Shown: positions 12,787 to 18,305 of the stretch, in pieces
How positions within the stretch are numbered: position 1 is the stretch's first letter
Layout of the letters: each line of letters opens with the position of its first letter
Source: Synechococcus sp. RSCCF101
GTDB taxonomy: Bacteria > Cyanobacteriota > Cyanobacteriia > PCC-6307 > Cyanobiaceae
NCBI RefSeq assembly: GCF_008807075.1
Contig: NZ_CP035632.1
Span: forward strand, 62,001-126,000
Length of the DNA stretch: 64,000 nucleotides
Reading direction: 5' to 3'
Translations under genes and position numbers: made by a program
Notes under the pieces: model-generated
The model's database searches: none
Told to the model about the DNA's origin: nothing
The model's input: only the letters and a program-made list of their open reading frames with translations

Positions 12787-13401
12787 TCAGAGCAGATAGA
12801 GAATCAGGAACAGCACAACCCAGATGCCGTCAACAAAGTGCCAGTACAGCTCCGCTGCCTCGATCGCGAAGGGGTTGGACGCGTCCACACGTCCGGCGGG
12901 CTGACGCACCTGCCACCATACGATCAGGATCATGATGGCACCCAGCGTCACGTGCAGGCCGTGAAAGCCGGTGAGCAGATAGAAGGTGCTGGCGAGCAGG
13001 TTGTCGGTCAGTCCGAAGGGCAGGGAGAAGTACTCAACCATCTGGCTGACCAGGAAGGCCAGCCCGAGCCCCGCCGTGACGGCCAGCCAGGTCCTGCACA
13101 GCTCGCTGCGTCCCTGCCTCAGGGCTGCGTTGGCCCGATGGAAGGTGGCGCTGCTCACCAGCAGCAGCACGGTGTTGATCGTGGGCAGGGCCAGTTCAAG
13201 CTCGTAGGTGGCGCCTTCGGGCAGCGGATTCACGGCCCGGAAGGTGAGATACGCGGCGAAGAAGCCTGCGAAGGTCATGGCATCGGCCACCAGGAAGGCC
13301 GCCAGACCGAACAGGCGCACATCGGGGTGGCCATGCGCCTCGGCCTCGCCGCTGCCCCCGTGCAGGGCCTGGGATTCGGAATCGGAGAGGGTGAGGGTCA
13401 T
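12787..13401 (-). CDS. ctaE: Cytochrome c oxidase subunit III
   Basis: 204 residues, five membrane segments. Recognisable family blocks: RLFGLAAFLVADAMTFAGFF, NTVLLLVSSATFHRANAAL, SQMVEYFSLPFG, FYLLTGFHGLHVTLGAIM and ELYWHFVDGIWVVLFLILYLL. It belongs to the aa3-type terminal oxidase. ATG at 13401 (MTLTLSDSES) is chosen; the longer frame upstream is shadow of ctaD. It is the last gene of ctaC-ctaD-ctaE, 59 bp after ctaD. Confidence 0.97.
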   Translation of the reverse strand: MTLTLSDSESQALHGGSGEAEAHGHPDVRLFGLAAFLVADAMTFAGFFAAYLTFRAVNPLPEGATYELELALPTINTVLLLVSSATFHRANAALRQGRSELCRTWLAVTAGLGLAFLVSQMVEYFSLPFGLTDNLLASTFYLLTGFHGLHVTLGAIMILIVWWQVRQPAGRVDASNPFAIEAAELYWHFVDGIWVVLFLILYLL

Positions 13402-13460
13402 GGTGTCGTGGGCGGGAGGTCCGGGACAGAGCCGGATGCGGAGGTCATCGGAGCGGCGTC

Positions 13461-15128
13461 TCAGCGGCCGCCGCTCCAGAGGTCGCGGCCCGAAGCCGTC
13501 GACAGATCCAGTTGGTCGATCGGGACCCCGTAGCCGTAGGGCTCGAGCACCAGGGGCGCCTCCCCGTGCCAGTTCTCCACGGGCGGCGGGGAACTGGTCA
13601 GCCATTCCGGCGTCCGGGCATTCCAGGGGTTGTCGCCGGCACGGGCTCCCTGCCAGAGGCTGGCGATCACGTTCCAGAGGAAGGGGAGTGTGCTCAGGGC
13701 CATCAGCAGCGCCCCCACGCTGCTCAGCTGATTCACGAGGGTGAACTGAGGGTCATACTCCGCCACCCGCCGGGGCATGCCGTTGAGCCCGAGCCAGTGC
13801 TGCGGGGCAAAGCAGAGGTTGAAGCCGAGGAACGTGAGCAGGAAATGCAGGCGCCCGAGGGGTTCGTTCAGCAGGCGGCCGGTGAACTTGGGATACCAGT
13901 GGTAGATGGCGGAGAAGATCACGAACACCGATCCTCCGTAGACGATGTAATGGAAGTGGCCGACAACGAAATAGGTGTCATGCACGTGCACATCAAATGG
14001 CACCTGCGCCAGGGCCACTCCGGTGATGCCGCCGAAGACGAAATGCACGATGAAGGCGCAGGAGAACAGCATGGCGCTGTTGAGTGCGATCTTCCCTCCC
14101 CAGAGGGTGGCCAGCCAGTTGAAGAACTTGATTCCCGTCGGGACGGCAATGAAGGCGGTGGCAATCGTGAAGAACAGCCGCATCCAGGGAGGCGTGCCGC
14201 TGGTGAACATGTGGTGCGCCCAGACGATCAGACCGAGGAAGACGATGGCCATGATCGAGTACACCATCGTGGAGTAGCCGAACAGGGGCTTGCGGCTGTG
14301 CACCGGCAGAATCTCGCTCACCAGTCCGAACACCGGCAGCACCATGATGTAGACGGCAGGGTGTGAATAGAACCAGAACAGGTGCTGGTACACCACCACG
14401 TTGCCTCCTTCACCGGGGTTGAAGAAACCCGTGTGGGCGACGATGTCAAAGCTGAGCATGATCAGCGTTCCCGCCAGAACCGGCGTTGACAGCAACACCA
14501 GCAGGCTGGTTCCGAGCATGGCCCAGCAGTACATCGGCAGCTGCATCATCCCCAGGCCGGGGCGGCGCAGTTTGAGGATGGTGGCGATGAAGTTGATCGC
14601 CCCGAAAATGGAGCTCCCGCCCAGAAGCAGAACGCTCACGATCCAGAGCACCTGGCCGGCTGCCGGGGTGGTGATGCTCAGCGGCGGATAGGCGGTCCAG
14701 CCCGACTGGGCGGCGCCGGTGAGGAAATAGCTGCTGATCAGCAGCAGACCTCCCGGCGGAATCAGCCAGAAGGCCACCGCGTTCAGGCGCGGGAAGGCCA
14801 TGTCACGCGCGCCCACGTAGAAGGGGATCAGATAGTTGCCGAAGGCCCCGTTCACGACGGGAACGATCCAGAGAAAGATCATGATCGTTCCGTGCAGCGT
14901 CAGCACCTCGTTGTAGGTGTCGCGCGGCACCAGATCGGCCATCGGGCTGATCAGTTCCGTGCGGATCACCCCGGCCAGCGCTCCGCCGACGAAATAGAAG
15001 AGGAATCCCGCCACCAGGTACTGCAGCCCGATCACTTTGTGATCGAGGCTGAAACTCAGGTACCGCAGCCAGCCCACCGGCTGGAGGCTGGGGCCCTGGG
15101 GTTGACTGCTGGGAACGGCGATGGTCAT
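13461..15128 (-). CDS. ctaD: Cytochrome c oxidase subunit I
   Basis: 555 residues with about 12 membrane segments. The heme and CuB ligand blocks are visible: LHGTIMIFLW (low-spin heme His), WFYSHPAVYIMVLPVFG (CuB His with the cross-linked Tyr region), VWAHHMFTSG (two CuB His) and VGHFHYIVYGG (heme a3/heme a His pair). It reduces O2 to water and pumps protons in the cytoplasmic/thylakoid membrane. ATG at 15128 is chosen because the frame upstream to 15311 is low-complexity shadow. It lies 56 bp after ctaC. Confidence 0.98.
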   Translation of the reverse strand: MTIAVPSSQPQGPSLQPVGWLRYLSFSLDHKVIGLQYLVAGFLFYFVGGALAGVIRTELISPMADLVPRDTYNEVLTLHGTIMIFLWIVPVVNGAFGNYLIPFYVGARDMAFPRLNAVAFWLIPPGGLLLISSYFLTGAAQSGWTAYPPLSITTPAAGQVLWIVSVLLLGGSSIFGAINFIATILKLRRPGLGMMQLPMYCWAMLGTSLLVLLSTPVLAGTLIMLSFDIVAHTGFFNPGEGGNVVVYQHLFWFYSHPAVYIMVLPVFGLVSEILPVHSRKPLFGYSTMVYSIMAIVFLGLIVWAHHMFTSGTPPWMRLFFTIATAFIAVPTGIKFFNWLATLWGGKIALNSAMLFSCAFIVHFVFGGITGVALAQVPFDVHVHDTYFVVGHFHYIVYGGSVFVIFSAIYHWYPKFTGRLLNEPLGRLHFLLTFLGFNLCFAPQHWLGLNGMPRRVAEYDPQFTLVNQLSSVGALLMALSTLPFLWNVIASLWQGARAGDNPWNARTPEWLTSSPPPVENWHGEAPLVLEPYGYGVPIDQLDLSTASGRDLWSGGR

Positions 15129-15184
15129 GAATCGACTGGAGGACGGCGGAGGGGAGGGGCAGGGATCGGAGCGAGGGTCAGACG

Positions 15185-16081
15185 TCAGCCCTCCAGCGCC
15201 GGTGCGGCCTGGGCGAGGGTCGCCGGTGCATTGGCCGCCAGCCAGGCGTCGTAGGCCTCGGGTTCCTCCACCACGACCGTGGAGCGCATACCGCCGTGAT
15301 ACGGGCCGCACAGCTCGGCGCAGACGATCGGGTAGCGACCGGGCCGTGTGGCCGTGAAGCTCACCACCGTGGGCTGGCCTGGAATCACGTCCTGCTTGAT
15401 GCGGAACTCAGGCACCCAGAAGGCGTGGATCACGTCCTTGGAGTTCATCAGGAGCGAGACGGGTCGATTGGCGGGAACGTGCAGTTCGCCGCTCACGAAG
15501 CCGGGGCCCGGATAGTTGAAGATGAAGGCGAACTGCATCGCGGTCACCTCCACCGCCACAGGACCGTCCGCAGCCGATGGGGTCTCGCTCGAGACGAACG
15601 CTCCGGACGGACCGCTGGATGATTCCGACCCCTCGCTCGGTGGCCAGCCGCCACCGATGCCCCCCCAGATCTTCTCGCTGTGGCCGGAGGCGTCATGGGC
15701 GGCACCATGGTCATGACCCAGCGGCGCCATCCCGCCCATGCGGTCGTAGATGTCGTAGCTGTAGAGGCCCACGAACAGCACGACAATCGCGGGAACGGCG
15801 GTCCAGAAGACCTCGAGCTGCAGATTGCCCTCAATCGCGACACCATCACCGTGGTCGCCCTCGCGACGGCGGAAACGGATCAGGCTGAACAGCAGCAGAC
15901 CCAGAACGCCGAGAAACAGAACGGCCCCAATTGTGAACAGAACCTGAAAAAGCTCGTCGTAGATCGGAGCGTTCGTGCTCGCATCGATCGGCAGGAGCTG
16001 AACGTTGTCGCCCAGCCAGAGGGCCGCCAGCACCAGCGCCATCCCGAGGACGAGCGAGAGAATCGGGCCTGGGATCGGCAT
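15185..16081 (-). CDS. ctaC: Cytochrome c oxidase subunit II with an unusual loop insert
   Basis: 298 residues. There are two N-terminal membrane helices (about 5-22 and 43-62), then a cupredoxin domain with the CuA ligands HAFWVPEF (His) and CAELCGPYHGGM (Cys, Cys, His, Met). Between the second helix region and the CuA domain lies an insert of about 50 residues rich in His, Gly, Ser and Pro (starting near GHDHGAAHDASGHSEK). ATG at 16081 (MPIPGPILSL) fits the family; the open frame extends to 16237. First gene of ctaCDE, divergent from ctaA. Confidence 0.96.
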   Translation of the reverse strand: MPIPGPILSLVLGMALVLAALWLGDNVQLLPIDASTNAPIYDELFQVLFTIGAVLFLGVLGLLLFSLIRFRRREGDHGDGVAIEGNLQLEVFWTAVPAIVVLFVGLYSYDIYDRMGGMAPLGHDHGAAHDASGHSEKIWGGIGGGWPPSEGSESSSGPSGAFVSSETPSAADGPVAVEVTAMQFAFIFNYPGPGFVSGELHVPANRPVSLLMNSKDVIHAFWVPEFRIKQDVIPGQPTVVSFTATRPGRYPIVCAELCGPYHGGMRSTVVVEEPEAYDAWLAANAPATLAQAAPALEG

Positions 16082-16373
16082 GGCAGCGGCGGGCGCTGAA
16101 AGGACTGCGTTCACTGTATGGAGCGCCACAGAGTCCGCGGGCTGGCATGAAGCGGCTGTTGGAAAACGCGATGTGACTGTGTCGTTGCGATGACAGGCGG
16201 CACCGCCCAGCTGCGATCGAGGTGATGCCGCTGTCACCCACGTTGTCGCGATCCGACACGATCCGGTGTTCCACTGATGACGGAAGGCGGTGTTTCAACT
16301 CCCATCAGTGCAGGAATCTTCTGCAACTCATGGCTAGTTTGTGACCCCCAACCCGGTGCCTGACGCTGCGCAC
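16082..16373. promoter_or_regulatory. Divergent ctaC/ctaA intergenic region
   Basis: About 290 bp separate the ctaC and ctaA starts, one of the longest non-coding stretches of the window and less G+C-rich than the genes around it. It must carry the promoters for the ctaCDE and ctaA-ctaB operons. I see no convincing -35/-10 pair, operator repeat or small gene in it. Confidence 0.5.
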
Positions 16374-17344
16374 ATGTCCATCGCTTCCGATCACGACGAA
16401 CTGGGGCGCTTTGTCCGCGTCAGCGGCCATCTTGTGCCTGCCCTTGTGGCGCTCGTTGTCATCGGCGGCGCCACGCGGGTGATGGAAGCCGGGCTCGCCT
16501 GCCCTGACTGGCCGCTCTGTTACGGCAGCCTGCTGCCCGGCCGGCAGATGAATCTCCAGGTGTTCCTGGAGTGGTTTCACCGCCTCGATGCCTTCGTCAT
16601 CGGTGTGTCCTTCGTCGTGATGCAGGTGGTGGCCGTGGTCAGGCGCCGCCAGCTGCCCGTATGGGTGCCGTACTGGATGACTGCTCTGCTCAGCCTCGTG
16701 CTGATCCAGGGCGGACTCGGAGCGCTCACGGTGCTGGCCCTTCTTCCCGCCGCGGTGGTGACGGGGCATCTCGTCACCGCCCTGCTGCTGGTGGCCGTGC
16801 TCAGCGCCGGTCACCAGGCCCTGCGGCGGGACTGGCTCCCCGGCCAGGCCTCCGATCCAGCCCCATCCACCCTCTGGTGGGCAGCGACCCTCCCCGTTCT
16901 TCTGCTGGTCACCGCCCAGTGCCTGATCGGGGGCTGATGGCGAGTCAGTGGGCCGCGCACCTCTGCCTGTCCCAGGGCTCCGGCTGCCAGTGGCTCGGTC
17001 TGCACCGGCGTCTGGCCACCCCGGCCGCGCTCTCGGTGCTGATGCTTGTGGCCTCGGGCTGGCTGTTCAGTCCGTGGTGCCGCCGGCACTGGGGACTGCC
17101 CGCGGCCTCGGGTGTGCTGGTGCTCAGCCAGATGGCGCTCGGCGTGGCAACGCTGCGCCATGCCCTGACCGTTCCCGCCCTCACCATCGCCCATCAGCTG
17201 GTGGCGTGCCTGCTCGTGGCGGTGCTGGCCGCCCTGGCGGCGCGGGCACGTCCCTCGGTCCGCCCTGAGGCCCCGCTCACGGCAGCAGAGCCAGCTGCTG
17301 CCGCCGCCGAATCGCTTCCACCCGCTCTGATCCCCCATGGTTAG
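16374..17344 (+). pseudogene. ctaA: Heme A synthase (CtaA/COX15), frame broken at a G run
   Basis: The protein oxidises heme O to heme A for cytochrome oxidase. The N-terminal part (16374-16937) has the family blocks GGATRVMEAGLACPDWPLCYG, EWFHRLDA and VTGHLVTALL, then stops at TGA 16935-16937 just after membrane segment 5. The rest of the family sequence continues in another frame (MASQWAAHLCLSQG, LHRRLATPAALSV, LTIAHQLVACLL) to TAG 17344. One extra G in the 5-G run at 16929-16933 restores one frame of about 323 residues. The stop overlaps an ATG (TGATG), so coupled re-initiation is formally possible. The end overlaps the ctaB start by 8 nt. ATG at 16374 is used; GTG at 16341 is an alternative. 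Confidence 0.88.
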
Positions 17345-18305
17345 TGCCTCATCCGTCCGCGCCGACGTGGTCCCGTCCCGCCGGCTGGTGCGACTGCCGG
17401 CCTGGCTCGAGGTGGCCAAGCCCCGGCTGATCCCCCTCCTGCTGGCCACCACGCTCGGTGGCATGGCTCTGACCGAGTCCTGGCCCCTGCCGTCACCCCG
17501 GCTCGCCTGCACCCTCGGGGGCGGTGCCCTGGCCGCCGCAGCCGCCGGCGTCCTCAACTGCGTCTGGGAGCAGGACCTCGACGGCCGCATGGGCCGAACC
17601 CAGCAGCGGGCCCTTCCTTCGGGCCGGCTGTCGGCCCGCTCCGCCGTCATCGGAGCGATCGCCTGCACCCTGGCGGCCTCCACCCTTCTGGTGGCCGGGG
17701 TCAACTGCCTGGCGGCGGGTCTCTCGCTCCTGGGGCTCTGCAGCTACGTGTTGCTGTACACCGTCCTGCTCAAGCCCCGCACCACCCAGAACATCGTCAT
17801 CGGCGGTGTGGCCGGCGCGATCCCGCCCCTGGTCGGCGCGGCGGCGGCCACCGGCCACATCGGCCTGGGTGGCTGGTGGCTCTTCGCCCTGGTGATGGTC
17901 TGGACCCCGGCCCATTTCTGGGCCCTGGCCCTGCTGCTGCGCGAGGACTACCGCTCCGTCGGCATTCCGATGCTGCCGGTGGTCCATGGCGCCGCCGTCA
18001 CCGCACGGGCCATCGGCCGTTACGGCTGGGCCACGGTCTGCCTGAGCGGCCTGGGGGCACTCGTGCTTCCTGAAGGCGGTGCCCTCTATGCCGTGCTGGT
18101 GGTTCCCTTCAACGGCAGGTTGCTGCAGATGATCCGTCGCCTCGGCGATGCCCCGGACGACCGCAGCGTTGCCGGCGGTCTCTTCCGCTGGTCGATCCTC
18201 TATCTCTTCGGCATCTGTCTGCTGCTGCTGCTCAGCCGCGATCCCCATGCGGCCCAGCTCACGAGCCAGTCCCTGCAGCTGCTGGGCCTTGGATCCGCTG
18301 CCTAG
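17337..18305 (+). CDS. ctaB: Protoheme IX farnesyltransferase (heme O synthase)
   Basis: 322 residues, about nine membrane segments. As a UbiA-superfamily prenyltransferase it has the two Asp-rich motifs: [23 protein letters not shown] and the later [15 protein letters not shown]. It attaches a farnesyl group to heme b to make heme O, the substrate of CtaA. Its ATG overlaps the last 8 nt of ctaA, consistent with translational coupling and with the second frame of ctaA being real coding sequence. Confidence 0.97.

Follow-up and report, generated by a model that had tools for sequence, protein, structure and literature searches.

The ctaA locus of Synechococcus sp. RSCCF101 has its closest counterparts in the CtaA/Cox15 proteins of Cyanobiaceae-type relatives (PF02628), with which it shares the order of conserved residues over both parts of the gene, as well as the adjoining genes for a UbiA-type protein and a cytochrome oxidase. 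Compared with these relatives, RSCCF101 ctaA is deposited as two frames and is one base short at a run of five G residues (G5). CtaA proteins are laid out as two four-helix halves. Some archaea are reported to possess a half-length CtaA that forms a homodimer (PMC9145763). The RSCCF101 chains are likewise shorter than the usual heme A synthase, but the archaeal enzyme is a homodimer of one half-length chain, whereas RSCCF101 has unequal parts of five and three helices and a break inside a half. The archaeal case thus makes separate CtaA chains conceivable, although the RSCCF101 break does not fall between the halves.

Errors in long-read assemblies are described as being mostly homopolymer indels, with deletions most frequent after runs of 4–5 in the nanopore assembly of the same report (PMC12007338). 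The RSCCF101 genome is given as 2.98 Mb with 68% GC (PMC10669429). Its sequencing platform was not found in the literature searched, which contained only mentions of the strain. The RSCCF101 protein EVJ50_06065, of 11,376 aa (PMC9387257), equals in length an uninterrupted open frame on the − strand of the genome examined here (G000, C1:1222360-1256490; 11,376 aa).

In the window, which is the whole 64-kb stretch of RSCCF101 DNA analyzed, the deposited ctaA comprises two frames of one CtaA, joined at TGATG just 3' of the G5 run. The features of the locus are as follows.

16374..16937, + strand: first ctaA frame, residues 1–187, membrane segments 1–5, with a conserved Cys pair, a Glu and two His; ends in TGA
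16929..16933, + strand: G5 run, beside which one base is missing from the deposit when compared with the reading frame in relatives
16935..16939, + strand: TGATG, an apparent stop/start overlap; a CTG-ATG (Leu-Met) pair read out of frame
16937..17344, + strand: second ctaA frame, 135 aa, membrane segments 6–8, with a second Cys pair and two His
17337..18305, + strand: putative ctaB (heme O synthase, UbiA-type prenyltransferase); PF01040 UbiA, 189.9 bits
12787..16237, − strand: divergent cytochrome oxidase genes for subunits I, II and III; the oxidase is presumed to need heme A
15185-16237, − strand: oxidase subunit II, PF00116/PF02790 (open-frame limits)
13461-15311, − strand: oxidase subunit I, PF00115 (open-frame limits)
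12787-13605, − strand: oxidase subunit III, PF00510 (open-frame limits)

The first ctaA frame has an alternative start at GTG 16341 and its stop TGA at 16935-16937; the second has a possible start at ATG 16937 and its stop TGA at 17342-17344. The name ctaB is assigned from position and sequence. The sequence GGGGGCTGATG has a single exact occurrence in the window, with 0.15 expected by chance. An earlier note on this DNA (16374-17344) had described ctaA as split by a TGA/ATG overlap, and the second frame as overlapping ctaB by 8 nt; our coordinates agree in each respect, with frames at 16374-16937 and 16937-17344 meeting at TGATG 16935-16939 and an 8-nt overlap with ctaB (17344 versus 17337). 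The first part scores 85.7 bits against the Pfam COX15-CtaA profile (PF02628; cut-off 29.9). The second part reaches 20.2 bits, below the cut-off when taken alone, yet is collinear with the first and aligns to the end of the profile, as expected (positions 248-321), and the deposited parts together therefore match the family profile. The deposited ctaA is nevertheless two frames rather than one polypeptide with eight membrane segments, and no second CtaA copy was found in the RSCCF101 genome (G000). The split does exist in the deposited sequence, but most likely it is not a real feature of the organism.

Of 300 family genomes, 280 have a CtaA match. Among those of good quality (completeness of 90% or more, contamination of 5% or less) the figure is 197 of 197; RSCCF101 is included in both counts. 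With the second ctaA part as the query, matches were obtained in 366 of 400 genomes, including 247 of 251 good-quality ones. The open frame around the second-part match was at least 301 aa among the matches listed, with three exceptions: RSCCF101 itself (278 aa), G103 (174 aa, near a contig end) and G159 (126 aa, in a genome 64% complete). In the search for a near relative, the genus yielded only the RSCCF101 assembly itself, and a scan of genome contigs gave four more distant loci.

The relatives read through the position at which RSCCF101 ctaA is broken. A first set comprised 34 relative loci, all of which continue in one frame through the junction. The gap between the two matched parts is exactly 3 nt in 28 of them and 6 nt in four; in the other two the first-part match ends earlier. 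Both parts lay in one frame in 62 of the 63 relative loci fetched (62 of 65 when the RSCCF101 copies L001 and L036 are counted), a set in which two pairs, L032/L045 and L033/L051, resemble the same records. The exception is L034, a Prochlorococcus record, where the frame changes earlier in the gene and not at the RSCCF101 break. In that record the change falls within the first part of ctaA (2489-2994) and represents either an error or a separate mutation. The split is therefore not conserved in any of the 63 fetched relative loci, none of which has a break at the junction. Identity to the fetched relatives is 51–64% for the first part (L034 aside) and 36–59% for the second. A frameshift-aware alignment of 62 of the 65 loci to the window (L001, L036 and L034 left out; open frames cut at 450 residues, which affects L028) required one −1 step for each relative, located at 16936 for 58 of them, at 16933 for three and at 16825 for one.

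The same alignments account for the TGATG itself. At the putative start ATG, 52 of the 65 loci have Met, 10 have Leu and three have Val; together with the residue before it, this position forms a Leu-Met pair in 21 of 65 (19 of 63 without the RSCCF101 copies). As 50 of the 63 relatives have Met here, the ATG is an internal codon that was inherited, and a one-base shift in register turns the Leu-Met codons CTG ATG into the TGATG junction. The TGA/ATG overlap thus needs no selection for re-initiation.

The earlier note had offered two readings of the break, a one-base indel in the G run and a heme A synthase split into two polypeptides through re-initiation. Under the second of these, the deposited base count would be right and two chains, of five and three membrane segments, would be produced by coupled termination and re-initiation at TGATG and assemble in the membrane. 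The TGA/ATG overlap and the conservation of both parts speak for such an enzyme; the overlapping ATG and the G-rich stretch preceding it would permit re-initiation in principle, and the half-length archaeal homodimer (PMC9145763) indicates that the fold tolerates separate chains. The evidence from the relatives is at odds with it, given 63 loci without a break at this place and a putative start that is a conserved internal Met codon. Membrane topology is also unfavorable. Hydropathy analysis with overlapping peaks merged assigns five segments to the first part and three to the second, in line with the earlier placement of the break just after segment 5, so that the break lies inside the second four-helix half and off the boundary between the halves. 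Eight other breaks at G/C runs in the same assembly, described below, affect other genes in the same manner. Thus, we regard a two-chain enzyme as very unlikely; if it existed, a conserved enzyme of respiratory assembly would occur here in an unusual form with two chains. The exact phrase "split heme A synthase" is absent from the literature searched, a result that concerns that wording only.

Apart from the break, the gene is well preserved. The His, Cys and Glu columns that are near-invariant (identical in at least 97% of 60 relatives) are kept at nine of nine positions across both ctaA parts; we take the conserved histidines to be heme ligands, and the roles of the His, Glu and Cys residues are assumed from the B. 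subtilis enzyme. Among all near-invariant positions, two of 60 are changed in the first part and none of 19 in the second. Leave-one-out means for the relatives are 0.32 and 0.18 changes, with maxima of 5 and 3, respectively, so the two changes in the first part exceed the relatives' mean but are below their maximum. This test used 60 of the 65 loci, after removal of L001 and L036 (the RSCCF101 locus), L034 (shifted), and L021 and L028 (very long open frames). The GC fraction of third codon positions amounts to 0.834 for the first part and 0.815 for the second. Neither part shows a clear sign of decay, and the earlier statement that the second frame has not decayed further is borne out.

To place the ctaA break in the context of the assembly, we compared 1.264 Mb of the RSCCF101 genome (G000; 67.6% GC in the part compared) with 1.2 Mb of a relative, G034. 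Strict frameshift calling was applied to 298 orthologous genes, with 307,617 nt aligned in G000; ctaA is outside this set because the G034 ctaA lies beyond the stretch compared. The survey of G000 returned 11 confident frameshift calls. Eight of these are −1 calls with a G/C run of at least four in a 51-nt window, spread over seven conserved genes, and the run is at least six at six of the eight breaks. Random 51-nt windows of G000 contain a run of at least four in 36.5% of cases and of at least six in 2.2%. As G5 is short and runs of four or more are this frequent in random windows, the G run beside the ctaA break is, alone, weak evidence. According to Pfam assignments made through the G034 proteins, the broken genes encode an iron-containing alcohol dehydrogenase, triosephosphate isomerase, a DisA/CdaA-type DAC protein, CdsA (CTP_transf_1), an FKBP, an OmpR-type response regulator with Trans_reg_C, and an AAA/UvrD-type helicase with two breaks. 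They are located outside the window, at the following positions of G000.

C1:186918-188286: broken gene
C1:314360-315198: broken gene, CdsA
C1:316826-317919: broken gene
C1:322621-323441: broken gene
C1:1205323-1206038: broken gene
C1:1259631-1260349: broken gene, triosephosphate isomerase
near C1:1324163: broken gene

BLAST shows seven of the eight breaks to be clean, with two pieces of 47–81% identity that lie in different frames, abut or overlap in the query, and are one base short. The FKBP break is weaker by this measure: a further low-identity piece is found in a third frame, and the one-base-short sign is unclear there. Triosephosphate isomerase is present in G000 only as two abutting pieces (C1:1259643-1259765 and 1259756-1260346), and CdsA only as two overlapping ones (C1:314360-314956 and 314920-315183); no other copy of either gene was found in G000. 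A photoautotroph needs both proteins, and these two breaks are most simply explained as assembly errors. The break in ctaA belongs to the same type: a single base is missing next to a G run, and the gene is conserved in other respects.

The remaining three of the 11 strict calls were set aside, and none has a G/C run. The first is a +1 call against a 50%-identical protein, of which BLAST shows one piece only. The second is a +1 call in a transposase, for which the G034 query appears to be a shifted copy. The third is a −1 call at the start of the query, whose first 25 residues were taken as spurious, presumably a tRNA-derived reading.

The reverse comparison, of G000 proteins on G034 DNA, served as a control. 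It covered 283 genes and 297,414 nt and returned 11 calls, nine of them −1. As the call totals are equal and the control calls are also mostly −1, neither the total nor the sign discriminates between the genomes by the strict method. Because this method leans towards −1, the one-base-short sign in G000 was rechecked on BLAST coordinates, where it holds for seven of eight breaks. What differs from the control is the presence of G/C runs at the breaks and of clean BLAST pieces. A G/C run of at least four accompanies eight of 11 calls in G000 and none of 11 in the control, a comparison that is imperfectly matched since G034 has fewer G/C runs than G000. Homopolymer breaks are thus more numerous in RSCCF101 than in the control genome. 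By BLAST, two of the 11 control calls correspond to one transposase, the sole clean break, while each of the other nine has at least one piece at 28–49% identity or pieces that lie apart; these nine weak calls look like gene boundaries, fusions or shadow frames. The control transposase (L095 near 15854, C1 about 195,854 in G034) is shifted by one base relative to several G000 copies, and may represent a programmed shift or a dead copy. Two preliminary scans had been less selective. A first BLAST scan gave nine candidates among 451 ORFs in G000 and 19 among 536 ORFs in the reverse direction, with antisense shadow frames unfiltered, and a lax frameshift scan gave 22 calls in G000 and 47 in reverse, many at alignment ends, and was superseded by the strict scan.

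The lack of decay in ctaA would also be compatible with a real deletion of one base that arose recently in the sequenced culture and made the gene a young pseudogene, as homopolymer slippage occurs in cells too and a recent event leaves no decay. The strain would then be without heme A, or have traces only. Such a loss is distinctly improbable, considering that the same type of break is found in seven other conserved genes among 298, including the single-copy triosephosphate isomerase and cdsA, whose loss would not be expected in a photoautotroph, and that CtaA is matched in every one of the 197 good-quality family genomes. A third possibility, programmed frameshifting or transcriptional slippage at the G run, would yield a full-length protein from the deposited sequence, and the G run does directly precede the break. 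A run of five G is short for slippage, the relatives examined have no shift here and thus no conserved signal was seen, and the same process would be required to restore seven further, unrelated genes, each at a different run. We therefore consider it extremely unlikely.

It is very probable that the ctaA break stems from a homopolymer error of one base left in the deposited assembly and that the cell carries an intact gene. The deciding evidence is the genome-wide pattern of one-base-short breaks at G/C runs, and the examination of the control calls leaves this assessment unchanged. Thus, the one-base indel proposed in the earlier note gains support from eight other such breaks, in seven of the 298 genes compared. 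They resemble the long-read indel errors described in PMC12007338 in being one-base homopolymer deletions in unrelated conserved genes, and the flanks of ctaA are undecayed. Based on these other breaks, the single-copy state of triosephosphate isomerase and cdsA, and the BLAST check, we judge the two-frame state of ctaA to be an artefact, and we infer that the organism has the base lacking from the deposit.

In the living cell, ctaA would then be one open frame that encodes an ordinary eight-helix heme A synthase. This CtaA would be made beside CtaB and provide the cytochrome oxidase, which is encoded divergently, with heme A. The RSCCF101 assembly was the only one found in the genus search, and apparent gene losses, pseudogenes and split proteins in it need to be checked against the reads first.
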